Shown piece by piece: positions 54,301-64,000 of a DNA stretch of 64,000 nucleotides. The notes beneath the pieces were generated by a model. It had not been told where the DNA came from. It saw nothing but the letters and a program-made list of their open reading frames with translations, and did no database searches. The DNA is from Archangium gephyra (GTDB taxonomy: Bacteria > Myxococcota > Myxococcia > Myxococcales > Myxococcaceae), in NCBI RefSeq assembly GCF_001027285.1, contig NZ_CP011509.1, forward strand, positions 3,790,501-3,854,500, written 5' to 3'. Positions within the stretch are counted from its first letter, which is position 1, and the number at the start of each line of letters is the position of its first letter. Position numbers and translations under genes: made by a program.

Positions 54301-55599
54301 ATGCGCTCGCTTCTGCGTATCGCCCTGCGCAACCTCTTCGTCGACCGCGAGCGGGGACTGCTGCTCTTCTTCGTCATCGCCAGCGCCAGCGCGGTGCTCG
54401 TGGGGATGATGTCCCTGACGGCGGGCGTCGCCACGGAGCAGCGCAAGGCCGTGTTGACGCTGATCAGTGGGGACCTGAACGTCGGGGGCTACTTCAAGGT
54501 CCACCCCGACACCATCGCCCCGGTGATTGGCGATACCCCCCGTGTGCGGGCCGCGGTGGAGCCGATCCTGCCCGCGGGCTGCCGCATACGGGAGCGGGGC
54601 CGGGGCCAGGCCGCCGTGGGCTCGGGCCGGCATCGCAGCCGCTCCTTCATGATGAGCCTGGACGTGAAGCAGGAGCGTGACTCGCTCGGGCTGCTCCGGG
54701 TGGAGAAGGGCTCGCTGGAGGCGCTGGACAGGCCGCGGACGGTGGCGCTCTCGCTGCCCATGTCCGAGCGGCTCCGCGTCCAGGTGGGGGATGTGGCCAC
54801 GCTCTACGCGGAGATGGTGGGTGGCAAGCGCAACGCGCTCGACGTGGAGGTGGTCGCCATCACCGGGCGCGCCGGCTTCCTGGGCGAGGCGGCGGGCATC
54901 CTCGTCTCCAACGCCACCCTGCGGGAGCTGAGCGGCTTCCGCCCCGAGTCCTCTAGCGTGCTGCAGCTCATGTGCGGCGAGGGCTCGGAGCTCGAGGCGC
55001 TGGATGGCTCGCTGCGCCAGGCGCTGCGCCAGGCGGGCTTCGAGGTGCTCCCGGCCTCGCACGAGGCCTATGGTGACAAGGTGTCCCCGCTGCTGCGGGA
55101 GGACTGGGCGGGCCAGCGGCTGGATGTGAGCACCTGGGAGGACGAGTCCTCCTTCCTCTCCTTCGTGACCGATGGGCTCACGGCCCTCACCGCGCTGGTG
55201 GGGTTGATTGGCATCGCGGTCGTCATGGTGGGGCTGTTCGTCTCCCTGAGCGTCTCCGTGCGTGAGCGGACGCGGGAGGTGGGCACGCTGCGGGCCATGG
55301 GCATGCACCGCCGCTCCGTGGTGGGCCTGTTCGTGCTGGAGGGCCTGCTGCTGGGCCTGCTGGCCTCGACGACGGGGGCCCTCGTGGCCTCGCTGCTGGG
55401 GCTGCTGCTGCGGGGGACCATCACCCTGCCCGCGCAGATCGCCAGCCTCTTCTTCAGTGACACCCTGCCGCTGGAGCCCCACCTGCCAGCGGCCGTGCTC
55501 GCGGTGGTGCTCGTCACCCTGGGCGCGGTGCTCGCCTCCATCATCCCGGCGGCCCGCGCCGCCTCGCTGTCCCCCCGTTCCGCCATGGAGTCCCTGTGA
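54301..55599 (+). CDS. ABC transporter permease, FtsX/MacB type
   Basis: 432 residues, starting 2 bases after the previous stop. Helix 1 (GLLLFFVIASASAVLVGMMSL), a periplasmic domain with ~240 residues, then three helices around the coupling loop EVGTLRAMGMHRRSVVGLFV, nearly identical in motif to its neighbour. It lacks an ATP-binding domain. It probably pairs with the 677-residue permease in a heterodimeric exporter; an ATPase must be supplied from elsewhere. Confidence 0.85.
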   Translation: MRSLLRIALRNLFVDRERGLLLFFVIASASAVLVGMMSLTAGVATEQRKAVLTLISGDLNVGGYFKVHPDTIAPVIGDTPRVRAAVEPILPAGCRIRERGRGQAAVGSGRHRSRSFMMSLDVKQERDSLGLLRVEKGSLEALDRPRTVALSLPMSERLRVQVGDVATLYAEMVGGKRNALDVEVVAITGRAGFLGEAAGILVSNATLRELSGFRPESSSVLQLMCGEGSELEALDGSLRQALRQAGFEVLPASHEAYGDKVSPLLREDWAGQRLDVSTWEDESSFLSFVTDGLTALTALVGLIGIAVVMVGLFVSLSVSVRERTREVGTLRAMGMHRRSVVGLFVLEGLLLGLLASTTGALVASLLGLLLRGTITLPAQIASLFFSDTLPLEPHLPAAVLAVVLVTLGAVLASIIPAARAASLSPRSAMESL

Positions 55600-56417
55600 T
55601 GAAACCGAGTGCCCGTCTGCCCGTGCTCCTCGTCGCGCTCCTCGTGCAGGTGCCCGTGCTGGCCGCCGAGCCCGCCAAGGCCCCCGCCGCCGACTCCAAG
55701 GCAGCCACGGGCGCGTCCCGGGAGGAGCTGGTGGCGTACCTGGCCCGCATCGACAAGCGGATGACCTTCACCAGCGACTACAAGGGCACCGTCCGCATCA
55801 TGGGGCTCAGCAAGCAGAACTCCGAGACGGCGGTGGAGATCCACGTCTACCGCCGCGACAAGACGAGGGATCTGCTCTTCATGACCACGAAGCCCAAGTA
55901 CATGGCGGGCAGCGGGTACCTGCGCGTGGGCAACAACCTGTGGGAGTACGAGCCCACGGTGGGCCAGTGGACGCGGAGCACCATGCGGGCCAACATCTCC
56001 GGCACCTTCACGTGCGAGGCGGACTTCGAGCGCTCCCGGCTCGCCGAGGCCTACGAGCCCAAGGACGAGGGCACGGAGGTCGTCGATGGCGTGACGTACC
56101 GCAAGCTGTTCCTGACGGGGAAGCCGGGCACCGAGGTGTCCTTCCCCCTGCTGCGCCTGTGGGTGGACCCTGACCTGAACATCGTGAAGCGCATCGGGTA
56201 CGCGCCGTCGGGCAAGCCGCTGCGCACCGATATCGTCCGCGGCTACCAGCGCATCAAGGATCCGCTGACCAACGAGTTCGTCTACCACTACAAGGAAGTG
56301 ATGGAGGAGGAGGCGGAGGAGGGCTCGCGGGTGCTGGTGCGCTACGACGAGGTGGTGCTCGCCCCGCTCGACCCGAGCATCTTCACCAAGTCCTGGCTCG
56401 AGTCGCGCTCGCGGTAG
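55599..56417 (+). CDS. LolA-like outer membrane lipoprotein-sorting protein
   Basis: 272 residues. The ATG overlaps the permease stop by one base. Signal peptide MKPSARLPVLLVALLVQVPVLA, then an unclosed-barrel protein of the DUF4292/LolA-like family: YKGTVRIMGLSKQNSETAVE, VYRRDKTRDLLFMTTKPKYM, LWVDPDLNIVKRIGYAPSGK. Such periplasmic carriers shuttle lipids or lipoproteins, and they accompany MacB/LolCE-type permeases. Completes a three-gene operon that may export or traffic a lipid product. Confidence 0.83.
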   Translation: MKPSARLPVLLVALLVQVPVLAAEPAKAPAADSKAATGASREELVAYLARIDKRMTFTSDYKGTVRIMGLSKQNSETAVEIHVYRRDKTRDLLFMTTKPKYMAGSGYLRVGNNLWEYEPTVGQWTRSTMRANISGTFTCEADFERSRLAEAYEPKDEGTEVVDGVTYRKLFLTGKPGTEVSFPLLRLWVDPDLNIVKRIGYAPSGKPLRTDIVRGYQRIKDPLTNEFVYHYKEVMEEEAEEGSRVLVRYDEVVLAPLDPSIFTKSWLESRSR

Positions 56418-56436
56418 GACTCGGGTTGTGCAGGCT

Positions 56437-56529
56437 CCCTCTCCCTTTGGGAGAGGGCGGGGGGGGTGAGGGTCTTCCCCGCGTGCAGACCCTCTCCCTG
56501 ACCCTCTCTTAGTGGGGGAAAGAGGGTAG
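56437..56529. repeat. Dispersed CCCTCTCCC/GGGAGAGGG inverted repeat, copy 2 with a degenerate second unit
   Basis: CCCTCTCCC (56437-56445) pairs with GGGAGAGGG (56449-56457), followed by GGTGAGGGT and a second degenerate CCCTCTCCC unit (about 56490-56529, ending in AGAGGGT). It separates the LolA-like operon from the low-GC islet and may act as a terminator. The same family is seen at 40975-41014 and 60703-60726. Confidence 0.65.
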
Positions 56530-56595
56530 GCCCCTGCTAGCGCTCCATTTTGCGTTTACCTAGTTTCGGGTACATGCCGGATCTATGCTCGCGGC

Positions 56596-57183
56596 ATGGC
56601 GGACGGCGGAACGAGCAAGGCAGCACAAGGCACGATTGGAGCCCCAACGGACAGTGCAGTTGGCCAAGTTAGAGATGAAGCCCAAAGCCACTCGGGTTTA
56701 GGCAAGAACGAGGTAGCAAAAAGTGAGATACAAGTTCCCGCCAAAGGCTGTGGCTGGCGGGACAATATCGGCTTGGCCTCAGACCTTATTGGCATCGGTG
56801 GGGTCATTGTCACAGCGCTTACGCTCTCTGCGGTAAAGAAACTTCGGCGTGACACGCTGAGCCGCGTTCGGCTTCCCACACACATCAAAGCTCTACAGAA
56901 GTACGCCTCTGAATTGAACACCACGCTTGGCAATCTCAAAAGTAACGCGAACGCCATTTGTGCCACAATCGCGCAACTGGATTCGACACTCGCCGAGATA
57001 GTGTCAATAACGACCGGCGAACCGCAAGATAAAGCGAAAGATCTGAGGGAACGCGCAAATGCCTTCGCGGCGAGCGAATTAAACAATAGTCGCGAGGGAT
57101 GGAATGTGTATAGCGCTATCAACGGATTGATAGTCGCACTGGAAAACGTCGTTGCTAATGAGCAAGTGGTGCCAAATCCATGA
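56596..57183 (+). CDS. Membrane-anchored coiled-coil hypothetical protein
   Basis: 195 residues. A disordered N terminus, one hydrophobic segment (DLIGIGGVIVTALTLSAVKK, ~70-85), then a long helical region with possible coiled coil (LNTTLGNLKSNANAICATIAQLDSTLAEI). No ribosome site is clear. GC is much lower than the flanks. The stop overlaps the next gene (ATGA), so the two are translationally coupled. No family is recognised; topology suggests a membrane signalling or effector protein in an accessory locus. Confidence 0.65.
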   Translation: MADGGTSKAAQGTIGAPTDSAVGQVRDEAQSHSGLGKNEVAKSEIQVPAKGCGWRDNIGLASDLIGIGGVIVTALTLSAVKKLRRDTLSRVRLPTHIKALQKYASELNTTLGNLKSNANAICATIAQLDSTLAEIVSITTGEPQDKAKDLRERANAFAASELNNSREGWNVYSAINGLIVALENVVANEQVVPNP

Positions 57184-57566
57184 TGACCCGTTCGCAGGCC
57201 GCCAAACTCTTCTCGGAACTCAATCGGAAAACCCAAGCAGGAGAAATCACATGGCAGCGGAACATCAATAAAGTGAGTGGGTATAGTGGCGATTCTTTGA
57301 TCGACTCCTTTTTCGCCAAATACAACAATTGGCGCATGGGGCTTCTACGGATGGCATATCGCCAGTACGACCCGGAGCGCGATATCAACTTTTTTGAGGA
57401 GGGAACTAGGCTTGTGCTCCTCGATCTTATGGACCAAGTTCAGTATGAATTCCCAGAAGCCCCGGGGCTCAGCGACCTTATGAATGCGGTCACGTATACA
57501 ACATCCAACGCAGCGGACTTCGTGGCCGATATTCTCGGAGATACCACTAAGGAGGAAGAGGACTAG
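57180..57566 (+). CDS. Hypothetical acidic protein, partner of the membrane coiled-coil protein
   Basis: 128 residues, start overlapping the upstream stop (ATGA). Mixed helical protein (QAAKLFSELNRKTQAGEI, FFEEGTRLVLLDLMDQVQYE) ending in TTKEEED. No signal peptide or membrane segment. Same low GC as its neighbour. Not recognised. The tight coupling suggests a complex with the upstream product. Confidence 0.62.
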   Translation: MMTRSQAAKLFSELNRKTQAGEITWQRNINKVSGYSGDSLIDSFFAKYNNWRMGLLRMAYRQYDPERDINFFEEGTRLVLLDLMDQVQYEFPEAPGLSDLMNAVTYTTSNAADFVADILGDTTKEEED

Positions 57567-58431
57567 ACTGAGGAACTTTTCGCCCGCAGATGCTGTTTCG
57601 TGGTCTTGTGAGGAGCTACCGTCGAAAAGCGGTCCTGGAAGCAAATCCTGCCAGCTTCCCATTCAACAGACGTTAAAGCGCTATTGAGGCTGGGTCCTCT
57701 CTCGGGGCCCCCAGCGGCCTGATGGCGTTTTCCCTGGGGGGTTGATACCCGGGGCCCCTCCCCCTGCTCGCTGGCCTTCCGCGCCACGTCACTCGCCAGT
57801 CGACCGGGCCCGGGATGCGACTCGCGAGCTATCCCACTAACGCGGAAGATCTCGAAGATGCACGTCAGCAGATGCGTAACGTCCTCGCCGTGGAGGTCGT
57901 GCCGTAATACCAGCAGATGACCGAGGAACAGCTAAAGCGCCTCGACAATCCGCCCCCGGAGTCGTGACCGGCTCGGGGCTGGGCGCTCGGGAGTAGGGCG
58001 CAAATCGCAGGAGCCCCCGTAGAGCGCCCTTGAGGCTCCGGGACGAGGCCAACCCGGGGACAGACTCGGAGGCTTGGCAGGCCCTTCCCGGCGACGTGGA
58101 GGGCATCGCGGCTCGTACTTGCCGGAGGTGCCCCACTTGAGATCGGCTGGGGAAGAAAATAGGTCCTACCGACAGAGGGGCAATTGTGGAGTGGGCTGAC
58201 CTCCCCAAGATTGACGGTTTAGGAAACGGAAGGATCCGAGTAGCCTTGCGATGCACTGGGCGACCTGAGAATTCTGAGATGTGCGAGTCACAACCCCAAT
58301 ACCCTAGAAAGAGGCCCCTCGGGCAACCAGATGCCAAGCAGGGGGACCCTGTAGGCCCCTCACCACGCTAGATGCTCATGCAAAATGCAGAGTTCTTTTT
58401 AGGATCCGATTAATTGATGTAAGAGGTGAAC
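57567..58431. other. Long non-coding or decayed stretch within the second low-GC islet
   Basis: No convincing gene on either strand. A short plus-strand frame at about 57830-57968 (NAEDLEDARQQMRNVL ... TEEQLKRLDNPPPES, interrupted by a stop) may be a degraded gene remnant. A minus-strand frame of 166 codons lacks a ribosome site and domain. The last 60 bases are AT-rich and probably carry the promoter of the DACNV-type gene. Confidence 0.45.
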
Positions 58432-59649
58432 ATGTTCGAGAGAGATATATTTGATAAAATACAAGAGATTTGGTTCTCCGAGCAATTCCGATGCGATTAC
58501 CCAGGAGAAAAACCAAAAGAACCGCCTGCGATTGATACATTGCGCGCTGTGATCGAAGCCGCATTTCTCGCCAGTTTGAAGAGGGAGGAGGGGCGTCCGG
58601 TCGATTTCAGCATTGCTCTGGTCTCTCAGGAAGAAATCCAAGAATCACACAGGGTTGACATTTTTGGCGGGATGCAGCAAGTGATGAGCTTTCCGGCTCC
58701 ACTCCCGTTGCGTGTCGAGATTATTTCCAAACTAGCCGCAGCTATAGACAAGCGGACAACCGCCTTGGCTGTTGAGCCAGTGAAAGGTAAATCCAATGCG
58801 GAATTCCAAATATGGGGATTTCTGTATTTTGGTCCATCTCAGGATCGTTTTGATGAGGTGAACCTCTCAGGGCCTCGCCTCTCAACGTTGAGGCCGGATT
58901 GTCTAATAATAACCACGGCCTCGGCTGGCTCGCTCACGATTGCTCGAGGATACAATCTGCTTGGTTACTTCGAGTCAGGTAGACTTACGCGCTCTACTGG
59001 TTCGCCACTAACTCAGGACTTGATGCAGCACCATATTGAATCTGCCATAAAGGAAAACATCCCACCCGATCTTAACGCGGGCTTGTATTCGCTTATCTAC
59101 CGAGATTCCATTAAACGGCTGCTGACGGAAGCATCGAGGCGAGGGGACGGTGGAACAGTTATTTTGATTCCGCCTGCCGATGCAGCAAAAACGACAGGCC
59201 TGTATCGACCCATATATTCCTTTGATGGAGATTTGGGCATCGGTCATCTTCTTGAGAAGATGGTCATTGCGGAAATGGACCATTCTCCGCACTACGATCC
59301 CATAAAAAGACTGTTGGCCCTAAGACTTGCGGCGCTTTCTCAGTTCTCATGCATAGATGGCGCATTGCTCATTACTGCGAATTGGCACATGATTGCATTC
59401 GGCGCCAAGTTGGCTGCGACCAAGTGGACGGGACAGGTGCTCATTGGCCCTGGTGCAATTGGAGGTGGCGGCACATTTGACACATCGAAATTAGGTACCA
59501 GGCATAATTCGGCGATCGATTTCGTCGGGGCGTGCTCTAGTGCAATTGGATTCGTTCTGTCAGAGGATGGTCCGATCAGGGGGTTGATCAAGCGCGACGA
59601 GCAAACAATCCTTTGCTGGCCAGACTGTAGGTCTTCCATATTTGACTGA
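58432..59649 (+). CDS. DisA_N-like (DACNV-type) nucleotide-sensor protein
   Basis: 405 residues, ATG with AAGAGG upstream. The C-terminal third resembles the DisA/diadenylate cyclase fold: CIDGALLITANWHMIAFGAK with Asp309-Gly310-Ala311, and LGTRHNSAIDFVGACSSAIG with Gly355-Thr-Arg-His358, then GFVLSEDGPIRGLIKRDEQT. In conflict systems such domains (DACNV) are thought to sense nucleotides rather than make them. Here DGA is retained and RHR reads RHN, so activity is open. The N-terminal two thirds are unrecognised. Low GC; probably a defence or signalling gene. Confidence 0.65.
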   Translation: MFERDIFDKIQEIWFSEQFRCDYPGEKPKEPPAIDTLRAVIEAAFLASLKREEGRPVDFSIALVSQEEIQESHRVDIFGGMQQVMSFPAPLPLRVEIISKLAAAIDKRTTALAVEPVKGKSNAEFQIWGFLYFGPSQDRFDEVNLSGPRLSTLRPDCLIITTASAGSLTIARGYNLLGYFESGRLTRSTGSPLTQDLMQHHIESAIKENIPPDLNAGLYSLIYRDSIKRLLTEASRRGDGGTVILIPPADAAKTTGLYRPIYSFDGDLGIGHLLEKMVIAEMDHSPHYDPIKRLLALRLAALSQFSCIDGALLITANWHMIAFGAKLAATKWTGQVLIGPGAIGGGGTFDTSKLGTRHNSAIDFVGACSSAIGFVLSEDGPIRGLIKRDEQTILCWPDCRSSIFD

Positions 59650-59960
59650 TGCTGTCTGAGCGTCGCCTAAGAGGCTGTTGAACTGGGCGGGCTTATCGCT
59701 GCGGCAGATCATTGAATGATTCTGATGCTGCACGGGCTCGATGAGCTATGGGACCACAACCCCGTGGCCAAGAGGATAAAGCGCATGCACCTGATGCCGC
59801 GCGCACCCGTAGCGCTCACCTCGCTGGTGGAGGACTCCCGCGTTGTCGCTGCCGCCATGTCCGCTGCCGCACCACCTCCTGGTTACCTTCCAGAAAAGTA
59901 GGGGCGGGGACCTGACCGGGCAAGTTGTGCCCCTGGAGAGGTGTTCTTACCTCAAGAGGC
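59650..59960. other. Boundary region with transposon-end-like remnant
   Basis: GAGGCTGTTGAACTG near 59670 resembles the ends of some IS elements, and a 61-codon frame starting at 59716 (MILMLHGLDELWDHNPVAKR) looks like a transposase or accessory fragment. No complete gene. It lies between the DACNV-type gene and the IS5-type transposase and supports repeated insertion here. Confidence 0.4.
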
Positions 59961-60715
59961 ATGAGCGACCTGCCCATGCCTTCCAGAAAACCGTACGCCA
60001 CCGACCTCACCGACGATCAGTGGGCGTTGGTGGAGCCCTTCGTCCAGGCCAGCCAATGTGGACCCCAGGAGCAGTTGCATCCGCGCCGGGAGGTGGTCAA
60101 CGCCATCCTCTACATCACCCACACGGGAGCGCAGTGGCGCTACATGCCGCACGACCTGCCGGACTGGCAGCTCGTCTACCACTACTTCGACGAGTGGAAG
60201 AAGGACGGCACGCTCAAGCGCATCCACGACACGCTGCGAAAGAAGGTGCGCAAGAAGGCCGGCCACAAGGAAGCGCCGACAGCGAGCATCCTGGACAGCC
60301 AGAGCGTGAAGACGACGGAGGAGGCGGAGACGAAGGGCTACGACGCGGGCAAGAAGGTGAAGGGCCGCAAGCGTCACCTGCTGGTGGACACGCTGGGTCT
60401 GGTGCTGCTGGTGTGGATGTCGACGGCGGATGTGCAGGACAGGGATGCAGCCCAGGCGGTGTCGCCCCTGGCGGCACACGACTACCCCACGCTCCAGAAG
60501 ACGTGGGCGGACGGTGCCTACCAGGGACAACAGGTGGAGAAGGTGGCCAGGGAGAGCGGGGCATCACCCTTGAGGTGGTGAAACGCTCGGACAAGGACAG
60601 GGGCTTCGTCGTCCAGGCGAAGCGCTGGATTGTCGAGCGCACCTTTGGTTGGCTCAATCGGGAGCGGCGCCTATCCAAGGACTACGAACGCAAGGAGGAG
60701 TCCTCCCTCTCCTAG
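59961..60715 (+). pseudogene. IS5 family transposase, frameshifted and 3'-truncated
   Basis: Frame 1 gives the N-terminal domain ([38 protein letters not shown]) and the first catalytic Asp ([13 protein letters not shown]), with WADGAYQG for the second Asp. The catalytic Glu region ([20 protein letters not shown]) lies in the next frame, joined across GAGAGCGGGGCATC by a -1 shift. The C terminus stops at [11 protein letters not shown], inside a CCCTCTCC repeat, instead of the usual helical tail. The element is probably inactive. No clear terminal inverted repeats found. Confidence 0.75.
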
Positions 60716-60726
60716 GGGGAGAGGGG
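60703..60726. repeat. Dispersed CCCTCTCC/GGAGAGGGG inverted repeat, copy 3
   Basis: CTCCCTCTCC-TA-GGGGGAGAGGGG folds as a tight hairpin at the broken 3' end of the IS5 transposase, 6 bases before the convergent NRPS stop. It may serve as a terminator for the NRPS gene or mark the truncation point. Confidence 0.6.
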
Positions 60727-60731
60727 ACTGT

Positions 60732-63700
60732 CTACCGCCCCATCGTGGCCAGCACCCGCGCCACCACCGCGTCCGCTTGTGGCGCACGGATGAGGTCGGG
60801 GTGATCTCCCTCCAGCGGCACCACGTCGAGCTGCTCGCGCGGCAGCAACTGGCTCCAGCCGAGCGTCTCGTCGCGGCCAGTGCGTGAGTAGGCCGAGGTG
60901 AAGAGCTGGAGCCGCGCACGCAGCGGCGGCACCGTCCACCCCCGCACCTGCGGCGTCAGCACCTCACCGAGGATGTGCCACACGCGGGACAGCTGGCTGC
61001 CCTGGAAGTGGGGCGCCAGCATGCCCTTCTCCCGCGCACGCACCGCGAGCAGCTCCCAGCGAGCCTCGGTGTCCAGCGGCGCCAGCTCGCGCTCGAACTG
61101 CGCGTCGAGCACACCGAACTCCTCGGCCAGTTGCAGCACGGGATCCGCCGACGCCGGCACCGGGATGGCGTGGACGGGAGGCGTGTCGAGCAGGCCCACC
61201 AGCTCCACGCGCTCCCCCTGGGCCTCGAGCGCCGCCGCGACGCCGAGCGCCACGTAGCCGCCGAACGAGAACCCCATCAGCCGGTACGGCCCGTGGGGCT
61301 GTGCTTCGCGGATGTCCCGCGCGTACACCTCCACGCGCTCCTCGAAGGTGGCGAGGTGGCGCTGCGACACTGTCTCGGGCGCCTGGATGCCGAAGCAGCG
61401 CAGGCGCGGCTCCATCCTCCGGGTGAGCTCCTGGTAGTGGTGCACCTCGCCGTCGCCCGGGTGGAAGAGGAACACGGGCGGGGCATCCTCCGGCGTCTCC
61501 GGGCCCGACAGGCGCACCACGCTCGTCCGGGGCGGCCCCTCCTCCAGCAACTCCCTCACCGCGTCCGTGCTCGCCCTCAGCGTCGGGTACAGGAAGAGCG
61601 TGGCCAGCGGCATCGGCATGCCGAGCTCCTCCTCGATGCGCCCCAGCAGCCGCATGGCCAGGATGGAGTCGCCGCCCTGCTCGAAGAAGTCGTCCTCGGG
61701 CCGCAGGTCCGGCCGGGCCAGCACCTCGACCCACAGGCGATGGAGCGTCATCTCCAGCGTCGAGCGGAACGCCGTCTCCCGCTTGTCCGGTGCCGCCGGC
61801 GCGGTGGGCAGTGCGTCCGGATCTGGCAGCGCCTGGCGGTCCACCTTGCCGTTGTTGTTGACGGGCAGCTTCTCCAGCACGACGAACGTCGCGGGCACCA
61901 TGTACGGAGGCAGCTGCTCCGCCACGTGCTCACGCAGCGCGTCCGCGCGCACTCCGGCCGGAGCCTGCACCCAGGCGCACAACTGCTGCACGCCCGCGGC
62001 CGACGTCCTCGCCATCACCACCGCCTCCTCCACCTCCGGGTGGCGCCGCAGGCACGTCTCGATCTCCGACAGCTCGATGCGGAAGCCGCGGATCTTCACC
62101 TGGTGGTCCACCCGCCCGAGGAAGCGCAGGCGCCCGTCCGGCAGCGTCCGGGCCAGGTCTCCCGTGTGGTACATGCGCGCGCCCGGCTCGCGGGAGAACG
62201 GATCCGGCAGGAAGCGCTCGGCCGTCTGGTGCGGCGCGCCGAGGTAGCCTCGCGAGAGCGCCGCGCCTCCGATGTACACCCGGCCCGGCATGCCCGGCAG
62301 CACCGGCTCGAGGTGCTCGTCCAGCAGGTAGAAGCGGACGCGGGGAATGGGCCGCCCGATGGGGAAGGTGGGCGCGGTGCCCACGCCCTCCGCGCCGGGG
62401 ATGTCGCACGTGGCCGAGGTGATGGTGCACTCGGTGGGGCCGTAGACGTTGAGCCACGGCGCATGCCCGCCGCCCACGCGCACCCAGGCCTCGTACGTCT
62501 CGCGCTTGAGCACGTCGCCGCCGGGCGCCAGCAGCCGCAGCCTCGGGGGCACGCGCTGGCCATGGGCCTCCATCTCGCGCACCCACTCCTCGATGTACGT
62601 GGGCGGGAGGCTGATGATGCTGATGCCCTCCTGCTCCAGGTACGGCGTCATGAGGTGCGCGGGCACCAGTCCGTCCCGCATCACCACCGTGGCTCCCACC
62701 GCCAGTGGCGGGTACAGGTCCTCGGCGGCCGCGTCGAAGCTCAGCGGCGCGAACTGCAACATGCGGTCACCCGGGCGCAGGCCGAAGCGGGCCGCGAGGG
62801 CGAGGTTGTGGTTGACCACCGAGCGGTGCTCCACCATCACGCCCTTGGGCTCGCCGGTGGAGCCGGAGGTGAAGACGATGTAGGCGAGCTGGGCATCGGA
62901 CACCGTCCGCGGCCCGGGGCCCGTCTCCGCCGTCACCTGCGCGGGCTGGGGCGCCACCTCGACGAGGGACACGAGCCCCTCATGGGCGGGCAGCGCCGCC
63001 TCGTCCACCCACAGGCGCTTCACGCCGGAGCGCTCCAGCACCGTGCGCTTGCGCGGCTCGGGCCAGCCCGCGTCCAGGGGAACGTAGGCGCCGCCGGCCT
63101 TGAGGATGCCCAGCAGCACGGCCATGCCCTGCGCGGACGGCTGCATCACCACGCCCACCCGCTCCTCGGGCCGCAGGCCCTGCTCGACGAGGCGGGCGGC
63201 CAGGAGGTTGGCGCGAGCGTTGAGCTCGGCGTAGCTCCAGGTGGTGGTGCCGTGGGCCACGGCGGGCGCGTCCGGCGTGCGGCGCACCTGGGCCTCGAAG
63301 AGCGTGTGCACGCACGCTCCCGCCGGCACCTCCTGGGGGCCGCCGTCCAGCGAGGCCAGCACCTGCGCGCGCTGGGGCGCGGACAGCAGGGGCAGCCGGG
63401 ACAGGGGCATGTCCGGAGCGCGCACCACCTCGGAGAACAACTGGACGAAGGAGCCGGCCATGCGCTCCGACGTCGCCGCCGAGAAGAGGGCGCTGTCGGT
63501 GGCGATGAGGGCGCGCAGCTCGTCCCCGGGCATCTCCAGGAAGTCGAGCACCACGTCGTAGGCCGGGATGACGCTGCGGCCATCCCCCTCGAGCTGCGAG
63601 GCCGTGAGCCCCGCGAAGGACGGAGCCCCGAGGCCGTCGAGGTGCATGAGCACCTGGGCCAGGGGCGCGGCGTTGCGGTCCGCATCGGGACGCACGGTGT

Positions 63701-64000
63701 CGGCGATGCGCTTGAGGGGCACTTCCTGGTGGCGGGTGGCGTGCGCCACGACGTCGTAGACCCGCCGCAGGAGCGTGCGGAAGGAGGCGGCGCCCCGCAC
63801 CTCGGTGCACAGGGGGAGCAGGTTGGTGAAGAAGCCCACCTGCTTCTCCGTCCCCGGGAGGACTCGGCCGGTGAAGGGCGACGCCACGACGACGTGCGAC
63901 TGGCCGCTCAGCCGGTGCAGCCACAACTGCGCGAGCGCCAGCATGGCCACGAAGGCGGTGACACCCTCGCGCCGGGCCAGCGCCTTGAGCGCGCCCACGT
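60732..64000 (-). CDS. Non-ribosomal peptide synthetase, terminal module (C-A-PCP-TE), 5' truncated by window edge
   Basis: At least 1,088 residues visible, still open at the right edge (the first ATG-like Val is internal). Order: C-terminal part of a condensation domain (residues 1 to ~210 of the visible part); adenylation domain with VFTSGSTGEPKGVMVEH, SFDAAAEDLYPPL, LNVYGPTECTIT, MYHTGDL and NGKVDRQALP; a carrier domain DDFFEQGGDSILAMRLLG with the phosphopantetheine Ser; and a type I thioesterase with GFSFGGYVALG and late GDHPDLIR. The TE shows this is the last module. The A-domain specificity begins Asp235-Ala236 with an acidic residue where Trp239 is common, so no standard substrate is predicted. 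Confidence 0.93.
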   Translation of the reverse strand, partial: VGALKALARREGVTAFVAMLALAQLWLHRLSGQSHVVVASPFTGRVLPGTEKQVGFFTNLLPLCTEVRGAASFRTLLRRVYDVVAHATRHQEVPLKRIADTVRPDADRNAAPLAQVLMHLDGLGAPSFAGLTASQLEGDGRSVIPAYDVVLDFLEMPGDELRALIATDSALFSAATSERMAGSFVQLFSEVVRAPDMPLSRLPLLSAPQRAQVLASLDGGPQEVPAGACVHTLFEAQVRRTPDAPAVAHGTTTWSYAELNARANLLAARLVEQGLRPEERVGVVMQPSAQGMAVLLGILKAGGAYVPLDAGWPEPRKRTVLERSGVKRLWVDEAALPAHEGLVSLVEVAPQPAQVTAETGPGPRTVSDAQLAYIVFTSGSTGEPKGVMVEHRSVVNHNLALAARFGLRPGDRMLQFAPLSFDAAAEDLYPPLAVGATVVMRDGLVPAHLMTPYLEQEGISIISLPPTYIEEWVREMEAHGQRVPPRLRLLAPGGDVLKRETYEAWVRVGGGHAPWLNVYGPTECTITSATCDIPGAEGVGTAPTFPIGRPIPRVRFYLLDEHLEPVLPGMPGRVYIGGAALSRGYLGAPHQTAERFLPDPFSREPGARMYHTGDLARTLPDGRLRFLGRVDHQVKIRGFRIELSEIETCLRRHPEVEEAVVMARTSAAGVQQLCAWVQAPAGVRADALREHVAEQLPPYMVPATFVVLEKLPVNNNGKVDRQALPDPDALPTAPAAPDKRETAFRSTLEMTLHRLWVEVLARPDLRPEDDFFEQGGDSILAMRLLGRIEEELGMPMPLATLFLYPTLRASTDAVRELLEEGPPRTSVVRLSGPETPEDAPPVFLFHPGDGEVHHYQELTRRMEPRLRCFGIQAPETVSQRHLATFEERVEVYARDIREAQPHGPYRLMGFSFGGYVALGVAAALEAQGERVELVGLLDTPPVHAIPVPASADPVLQLAEEFGVLDAQFERELAPLDTEARWELLAVRAREKGMLAPHFQGSQLSRVWHILGEVLTPQVRGWTVPPLRARLQLFTSAYSRTGRDETLGWSQLLPREQLDVVPLEGDHPDLIRAPQADAVVARVLATMGR

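Follow-up and report, generated by a model that had tools for sequence, protein, structure and literature searches.

Diadenylate cyclases (DACs) that make c-di-AMP are usually recognised by a DGA motif and an RHR motif, and the gene considered here raises the question of what a protein does when it keeps the first and alters the last letter of the second. The gene lies in a 64,000-nucleotide stretch of Archangium gephyra DNA (the window) and encodes a DACNV-DAC protein in which RHR reads RHN, as an earlier note had seen and as the codons AGG CAT AAT confirm. That note had offered three readings: a nearly intact cyclase, a pseudo-enzyme that binds a dinucleotide, or a phage-signal receptor. Five classes of c-di-AMP cyclase, CdaA, DisA, CdaS, CdaM and CdaZ, are distinguished in the accessible part of one source (PMC10167629). 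The gene and its elements are as follows, all in window coordinates.

58432..59649, + strand: DACNV-DAC gene, 405 aa from ATG 58432, or 407 aa if GTG 58426 is used (ORF list, Pfam)
58422..58428, + strand: Shine-Dalgarno-like AGAGGTG directly 5' of ATG 58432 (sequence inspection)
58516..58824, + strand: N-terminal DACNV domain (PF21751), aa 31-133 in GTG numbering (Pfam E 3.4e-18, 66.1 bits, cut-off 27)
59017..59640, + strand: C-terminal DAC-fold domain, aa 198-405 (AF2 model with VIA-align, profile match)
59149..59160, + strand: GGTV (aa 242-245), counterpart of GALI with Leu replaced by Thr (profile alignment)
59356..59364, + strand: DGA (D311, G312, A313), codons GAT GGC GCA (sequence, census)
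59494..59508, + strand: GTRHN (G357-N361), counterpart of GTRHR (sequence, census)
59560..59568, + strand: SED (S379-D381), counterpart of the SEE cation-binding motif (census, profile alignment)

The reading frame 58426-59649 (+) is uninterrupted and of full length in the ORF list. Judging from its sequence context, ATG 58432 is the likely start codon, since GTG 58426 falls within AGAGGTG and four orthologs (L097, L098, L099 and L104) have N termini that begin MF[ED]. Residue numbers are counted here from GTG 58426 and exceed those counted from ATG 58432 by two; with the ATG as start, the positions given earlier for the motifs, DGA at 309-311 followed by GTRH at 355-358, are exact. Both motifs had been placed in a DACNV-like domain, whereas they lie in a separate C-terminal DAC-like domain (PF02457), and the DACNV domain, which passes the curated cut-off for PF21751, occupies aa 31-133. 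Both domains being in Pfam, the architecture is of an already known kind; what is described newly here is an RH[NS] clade, a residue census and an insertion. A literature search, incomplete in its coverage, found DACNV named nowhere and its relatives DACNG, DACNH, DACNK and DACND unstudied. DACN domains reportedly trace to a 2015 study.

By sequence models the C-terminal domain scores low. The Pfam match to PF02457 (DAC) over aa 308-384 is below the cut-off (16.2 bits against 27, E 0.008), and an NCBIfam search of the protein returned no family at E <= 0.1, so neither the DisA model nor the CdaA model TIGR00159 matched. In the single-chain AlphaFold model (pLDDT 81.9, from an alignment of 11 rows), VIA-align matched aa 198-405 to M. 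tuberculosis DisA (9y4s) with Z 13.3 and 2.7 Å over 133 residues, and to further DACs with Z 13.1 (4yxm), 12.9 (3c1y, T. maritima DisA) and 12.5 (2fb5); among the 50 rows listed the top 40 were all DACs, and the following row had Z 4.3. Foldseek with the whole model likewise ranked DACs first (E 8.2e-5, probability 1.00 to CdaA/DisA), with a superposition so poor (TM-score by query about 0.2, rmsd about 10 Å for CdaA) that the fold assignment is based on VIA-align and on profiles. A profile of 21 family members compared by sequence with the PDB retrieved 2fb5, 7l8n, CdaA and DisA chains (best E 8.6e-5). With a larger family profile, the C-terminal half matched nine CdaA-like cyclases at 96.9% probability (E 1.4e-10, 117 columns), in an alignment that pairs DGA with DGA and GTRHNSA with GTRHRSA, and a DacZ-like profile at 96.8% (E 2.7e-10); the DacZ-like profile reached 91% against the profile labelled A3, and the control, the C-terminal half against its own reverse, 1.7%. 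By predicted fold and by profile the C-terminal domain is a DAC, though below the Pfam cut-off, and the strong match over aa 198-405 implies that DGA and RHN share one predicted pocket; the refuting condition of the earlier note, that the two motifs form no common pocket, was examined on the predicted model by fold comparison and did not hold, both lying in one DAC fold.

The window protein has the fold, DGA, RH, the Ser and an acidic metal residue in common with CdaA, DisA and CdaS, and differs from them in a cyclase that is C-terminal behind DACNV, in RHN for RHR, in SED for SEE and in its low Pfam score. DisA has an N-terminal DAC and then further domains, whereas the DAC-like domain of the window protein ends at the C terminus. 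CdaA has N-terminal transmembrane segments; in the window protein the corresponding half matches DACNV.

Alignment equates D311 with the Asp of DGA, G357-T358-R359-H360 with GTRH, N361 with the third Arg and S379-E380-D381 with SEE. For a census of these positions, 101 ORF matches were brought to 37 by similarity reduction. Three DS2_3-type proteins, the DacZ-like cyclase L001 and L096, a plasmid copy that appears broken, were then set aside, which left 32 non-redundant DACNV-DAC proteins. L104, which a contig end truncates, and L105, of which a remnant survives next to a transposase-like gene, stand outside the census; L106 and L108 apparently represent contigs already present as L072 and L073. 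Computed in this way, the conservation of the pocket is strict: D311, G357, R359, S379 and D381 are invariant (32/32), H360 and A313 are each kept in 31/32 and G312 in 27/32, the exceptions being L099 (DCA), four rows with DNA, L033 (DGC) and L036 (RRR). Sensor-type relatives had been expected to lose the catalytic residues as a rule; among these 32 the key residues hardly vary, if at all, and loss of the catalytic Asp or of the first Arg, the hallmark of a pseudo-enzyme, is seen in none. The complete GxRHRxA motif is absent from the window protein, whose GTRHNSA keeps R and H and lacks the third Arg, and in place of (V/I)SEE stands LSED, in which the Glu at the metal position has become an Asp that the family carries in 32/32.

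The title of a PDB entry records T. maritima DisA D75N crystallised with c-di-AMP. We take D75 to be the Asp of the DGA motif; that Asp would then be dispensable for holding the product, so that its strict conservation points to catalysis. In the accessible part of a study of Listeria CdaA, ten ATP-site residues are given, with side-chain contacts from Leu31, Asp71, Thr102, Arg103, His104, Ser122 and Glu124 and main-chain contacts from Leu88, Gly101 and Glu123 (PMC7288161). Compared with the listed residues other than Leu88, the window protein has the same Asp, Thr, Arg, His, Ser and Gly, and its E380 corresponds to the main-chain Glu, whereas the metal Glu is replaced by Asp and the adenine-contact Leu by Thr. 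In Leptospira CdaA, according to the available portion of the source, single Ala mutants of the Asp or of the first Arg kill activity, and a Ser mutant retains about half of it (PMC12974146).

The altered letter itself occupies a position at which the family varies freely. Position 361 is R in 16 of the 32 proteins, N in 7, S, H and Q in 2 each and A, T and K in 1 each, with a full RHR in 15/32. Among the many DAC loci of the phylum outside this family, 30 were read at the same position, 23 CdaA-like and 7 DacZ-like by labels assigned here from score level and tree group (L001 alone being compared with NCBIfam); 21 of the CdaA-like loci have R and two have L, and five of the DacZ-like loci have A and two have S, with Arg in 0/7, so that these cyclases likewise go without the third Arg (RHA or RHS). 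The third Arg is also absent from the ten residues of the Listeria list, in the part of that source covered (PMC7288161). Taken together, the free third position in the family, the place of that residue outside the CdaA ATP-site list and the non-Arg letter in 7/7 DacZ-like loci speak against RHN as a loss. That Asn is tolerated at this position we infer from sequence comparison, because the published mutants, as far as the accessible parts of the sources go, changed either the whole RHR triplet (PMC3328451, PMC4568413, PMC13022847) or the first Arg alone. H. volcanii DacZ has been reported active, in the portion of the source available (PMC6741144); the third-position letters given above come from the loci of this phylum. 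An essential third Arg was considered and set aside as unsupported by the published CdaA site list and mutants in the parts of these sources covered (PMC7288161, PMC12974146, PMC3328451, PMC4568413, PMC13022847).

In the computed tree, the window protein and L097-L103 form a clade of eight rows (support 97/86) that has N at the third position in six and S in two. Its other members derive from a Deltaproteobacteria MAG, Desulfobacterales, Magnetococcales (two), Acuticoccus yangtzensis, Desulfotignum and a Rhodospirillales MAG, so that the RH[NS] clade is found in Deltaproteobacteria-type MAGs, Magnetococcales and Alphaproteobacteria; a scan of named genomes that used the three closest members as queries gave 12 loci. 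CdaA-like (99/98), DacZ-like (95/91) and DS2_3-type (100/99) sequences form separate groups, and the other 24 DACNV-DAC rows form no single group, L015 standing weakly beside canonical cyclases and L036 beside DS2_3, in a tree whose deep order is weak and whose four long-branch rows drew a long-branch-join warning from the program; most DACNV-DAC rows fall outside the CdaA-like and DacZ-like groups. Since N or S runs throughout the clade, decay of a single copy as the origin of RHN is ruled out, and the letter, as the aligned sequences have it, is typical of its family branch. L008 also has N there and lies outside the clade, at an unresolved place in the tree.

The DACNV-DAC proteins of Myxococcota and Hymenobacter have the same two-domain order and the same invariant residues, with a full-length profile match of 100% (E 1.4e-41); RHR stands in 13/22 of the other Myxococcota rows, whereas the window protein belongs to the separate RH[NS] clade. 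DACNV matches occur in 34/195 genomes of the phylum, and a DAC scoring over the cut-off is present in 96/117, which makes a DAC in itself nothing unusual in these bacteria. A search of 144 relatives gave matches to the window protein in 30, the best after the protein itself at E 5e-13, and no close copy among them. A second DACNV-DAC gene of the same genome (G000:C1:377063-378130; L002, L078) has the full GTRHRAA. Three ortholog loci were inspected by eye: in a Geobacter MAG (L105:9014-10315) only the last part of the ortholog remains and the adjoining gene looks like a REP-associated transposase, a small RelA/SpoT-like synthetase gene lies 600 bp downstream of another ortholog (L097:11815-12492), and a cyclic-nucleotide-binding-like protein is encoded upstream of a third (L100, just upstream of 9998).

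The N-terminal half may itself have been a cyclase once. Modelled alone, aa 1-196 reach pLDDT 81.8, and the first 31 rows returned by VIA-align are all DACs, with Z from 7.4 to 4.3 (next row 3.4), values under 8 being ones which, by the program's own warning, may reflect a common arrangement; 112 residues superpose on MsDisA at 3.8 Å. Foldseek gave no match for aa 1-196 at E <= 0.001, and hhalign with the N-terminal half as a DAC gave 0.3% against the C-terminal half, 0.3% against CdaA-like, 0.7% against DacZ-like and 0.4% against pooled DACs, little or no better than the reversed controls (0.1-0.2%). It is tentatively suggested, at somewhat under even chances, that the DACNV half is a worn-down DAC without the RHR-motif helix and the protein a pseudo-cyclase joined to a cyclase. 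The two would then pair asymmetrically within one chain, one of them shaping or controlling the only active site, by analogy with the paired halves of other nucleotide cyclases. In published descriptions, DACs act through two sites of the same kind, which have to meet head to head. If DACNV is a pseudo-DAC, the DACN-type 'sensor' domains found with CBASS would be DAC-derived regulators.

The gene stands on DNA that differs from its surroundings, and the elements concerned are the following.

56419..60813: outer limits of the insertion, with orf195, orf128, the DACNV-DAC gene and the IS5-like transposase (flank comparison, low GC)
56596..57183, + strand: 195-aa orphan ORF (orf195), in the insertion
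57180..57566, + strand: 128-aa ORF (orf128), with a 4-nt overlap with orf195
59843..60715, + strand: IS5-like transposase in two overlapping frames (59925-60581 and 59843-60715), DUF4096/DDE_Tnp_1 in one and DDE_Tnp_1_2 in the other (Pfam)

The flanks (window 56418 and 60814) are separated by 94 bp in the same-genus genome G005 and by about 220 bp in G002, and about 1.5 kb of different sequence lies between them in G003 and in G001; the contig of G004 ends before the second flank, and the comparison comprises four same-genus sites. Because the flanks at these sites are close together or enclose other sequence, up to 4.4 kb of the window is an insertion, of foreign composition and absent from the four comparable sites. 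The DACNV-DAC gene has a GC of 49.9% and a GC3 of 50.7, and a neighbouring gene (55596-56417) a GC3 of 96.4. The IS5-like transposase is broken or read by frameshift, and it is no proof of the route by which the DNA arrived. No plasmid match was found for orf195, whose relatives are absent from the 97 other genomes among the 98 searched, and orf128 has no Pfam match at E <= 1 and no PHROGs match at E <= 0.001. The insertion is bordered by a long ORF on the minus strand (window 60732-63998) that looks by eye like a non-ribosomal peptide synthetase.

The neighbours of the family were surveyed at 23 loci outside the window, with up to three genes per side, a simple ORF caller and genes longer than 1200 aa or containing N left out, which yielded 128 genes. 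At least one of them was matched by each of 146 PADLOC models and 123 Pfam families, raw counts that do not say whether defence genes are over- or under-represented, and no Pfam family (E <= 1e-5) or PADLOC model (E <= 1e-10) recurred in more than two of the 128. The family members themselves gave no PADLOC match at E <= 0.01 (21/21); no relatives were found in phage records, or in viral contigs by pattern scans.

Links to phage defence come from one ortholog and from a sister group. The ortholog of Acuticoccus yangtzensis (L101:3284-20323) lies in a prophage, with primase and RuvC genes on one side and terminase and portal genes on the other; the same prophage also has HNH and ParB-methyltransferase genes. 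On a Citrobacter plasmid (NZ_CP029730; L092:4045-7719), genes for a patatin, a CD-NTase and a DACNG-DACNH-DAC protein correspond to DS2_1, DS2_2 and DS2_3, named anti-phage by NCBIfam. The window protein resembles DS2_3 (NF053872) in a profile match over aa 42-388 that covers both halves (96.6%, E 5e-10) and in an R-x-N-S signature, all six DS2_3-type DAC domains reading R[YF]NS and the window protein RHNS; it differs in that DS2_3 has DACNG/DACNH N-terminal domains, R[YF]N and its own tree group, whereas the window gene has DACNV and RHN, with no CD-NTase nearby. By analogy, an immune role for the window protein is possible. No literature on DS2_3 was found, and the parts covered of an account of the DS2 hotspot contain no DAC system (PMC10250203). 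In a myxobacterial genome (G038; L066:1-3243), a Cap15 gene (Pfam) and a stretch that looks by eye like a CD-NTase immediately precede a DS2_3-type DACNG-DACNH-DAC gene, a set that resembles a CBASS operon in which a DAC protein is combined with an effector other than patatin. On a plasmid of Hymenobacter monticola (L095:5584-9110), a patatin-Omp85 gene stands directly in front of a DACNV-DAC gene.

The host has c-di-AMP parts of its own. Its DacZ-like cyclase L001 reads GARHAAA, has no DACNV domain and matches NF041371 with 163 bits, below the cut-off of 430. It also encodes a 7TM-HD protein, which is presumably of the PgpH phosphodiesterase kind, and no ydaO-type c-di-AMP riboswitch was found in it at E <= 1. 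SMODS genes over the cut-off lie at C1:343807, 5010148 and 6024388, the DACNV-DAC gene being at 3.85 Mb.

The reading that best accounts for these observations, and one to which we give slightly better than even chances as a whole, is that of a gene horizontally acquired by the myxobacterium which encodes a two-domain, regulated and probably active nucleotide-signalling cyclase. Of the three readings offered in the earlier note, the nearly intact cyclase fares best, given the fold, the single pocket and the conserved residues, all as predicted. As to ATP binding, catalysis, product, gating and purpose, we infer the following course. In the DAC pocket the usual residues would hold ATP and a divalent cation: T358, R359, H360 and S379 would contact the phosphates, D311 the ribose and D381 the metal. 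Two sites facing one another would then turn a pair of ATP molecules into a cyclic dinucleotide, with c-di-AMP as the likeliest product. The DACNV half may gate the cyclase, by ligand sensing or by control of DAC pairing. The product would act on diffusible receptors, a proposal that fits the absence of a recurrent partner gene, and it could join the host's own c-di-AMP circuit, with its DacZ-like cyclase and 7TM-HD protein.

Against activity, it must be considered that a fixed pocket would equally fit a strict binder. A pseudo-enzyme or receptor, whose DAC domain would bind and signal the presence of ATP, c-di-AMP or a CBASS-type dinucleotide but catalyse nothing, would be in keeping with the missing third Arg, the change of the metal Glu to Asp and of the adenine Leu to Thr, and with sister R[YF]N DACNG/DACNH-DAC proteins that can adjoin a CD-NTase, itself a source of a nucleotide signal. 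We hold this to be unlikely, as the catalytic Asp, the first Arg, the Ser and the metal-position Asp are kept in 32/32, full RHR occurs in 15/32 and no effector gene recurs beside the family (128 neighbour genes, 23 loci); for the more particular idea of a phage-signal receptor no direct evidence was found, despite the prophage setting of L101 and the anti-phage name of the sister operon. An active cyclase with another product, a mixed or linear dinucleotide perhaps arising through the changed adenine contact and pairing, is suggested by the Leu to Thr change in GALI and by the place of most DACNV-DAC rows outside the CdaA-like and DacZ-like groups; with phosphate and ribose residues as in c-di-AMP makers and no direct sign of a different base preference, it is distinctly improbable.

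A claim about purpose, compatible with any of these biochemical readings, is that the protein serves anti-phage defence, stand-alone or on mobile elements, and signals infection. The insertion with its transposase, L101 in its prophage, the DS2 operon named anti-phage, the Hymenobacter plasmid copy beside a patatin-like gene and the PADLOC matches of some of the 128 neighbours (a GajB-like helicase, mad2, a type IIG restriction enzyme) lean this way, yet many ortholog neighbours look metabolic, for example sulphite reductase, no PADLOC model matches more than 2/128 neighbours, 0/21 family members were matched and phage or viral relatives were not found; the claim is accordingly regarded as rather doubtful. 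That the gene is a decaying foreign one without function might be read from its foreign composition, the neighbouring split-frame transposase and its single copy on an insertion, but the frame is open over its full length, the start and the family-invariant residues are intact and N361 is clade-typical and not private, which leaves this explanation with very little probability.

The DACNV-DAC family, as seen here, extends over several phyla, sometimes on mobile DNA, and keeps the Asp and first Arg found individually essential in Leptospira CdaA, often without the third Arg. If its members are active, the RHR annotation rule is too strict and the family would be a further cyclase class with a built-in regulator; if they are inactive, the pocket would be held fixed for sensing alone. 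The family offers a simple entry to the question of why DACN-DAC genes can adjoin CD-NTases in anti-phage operons.
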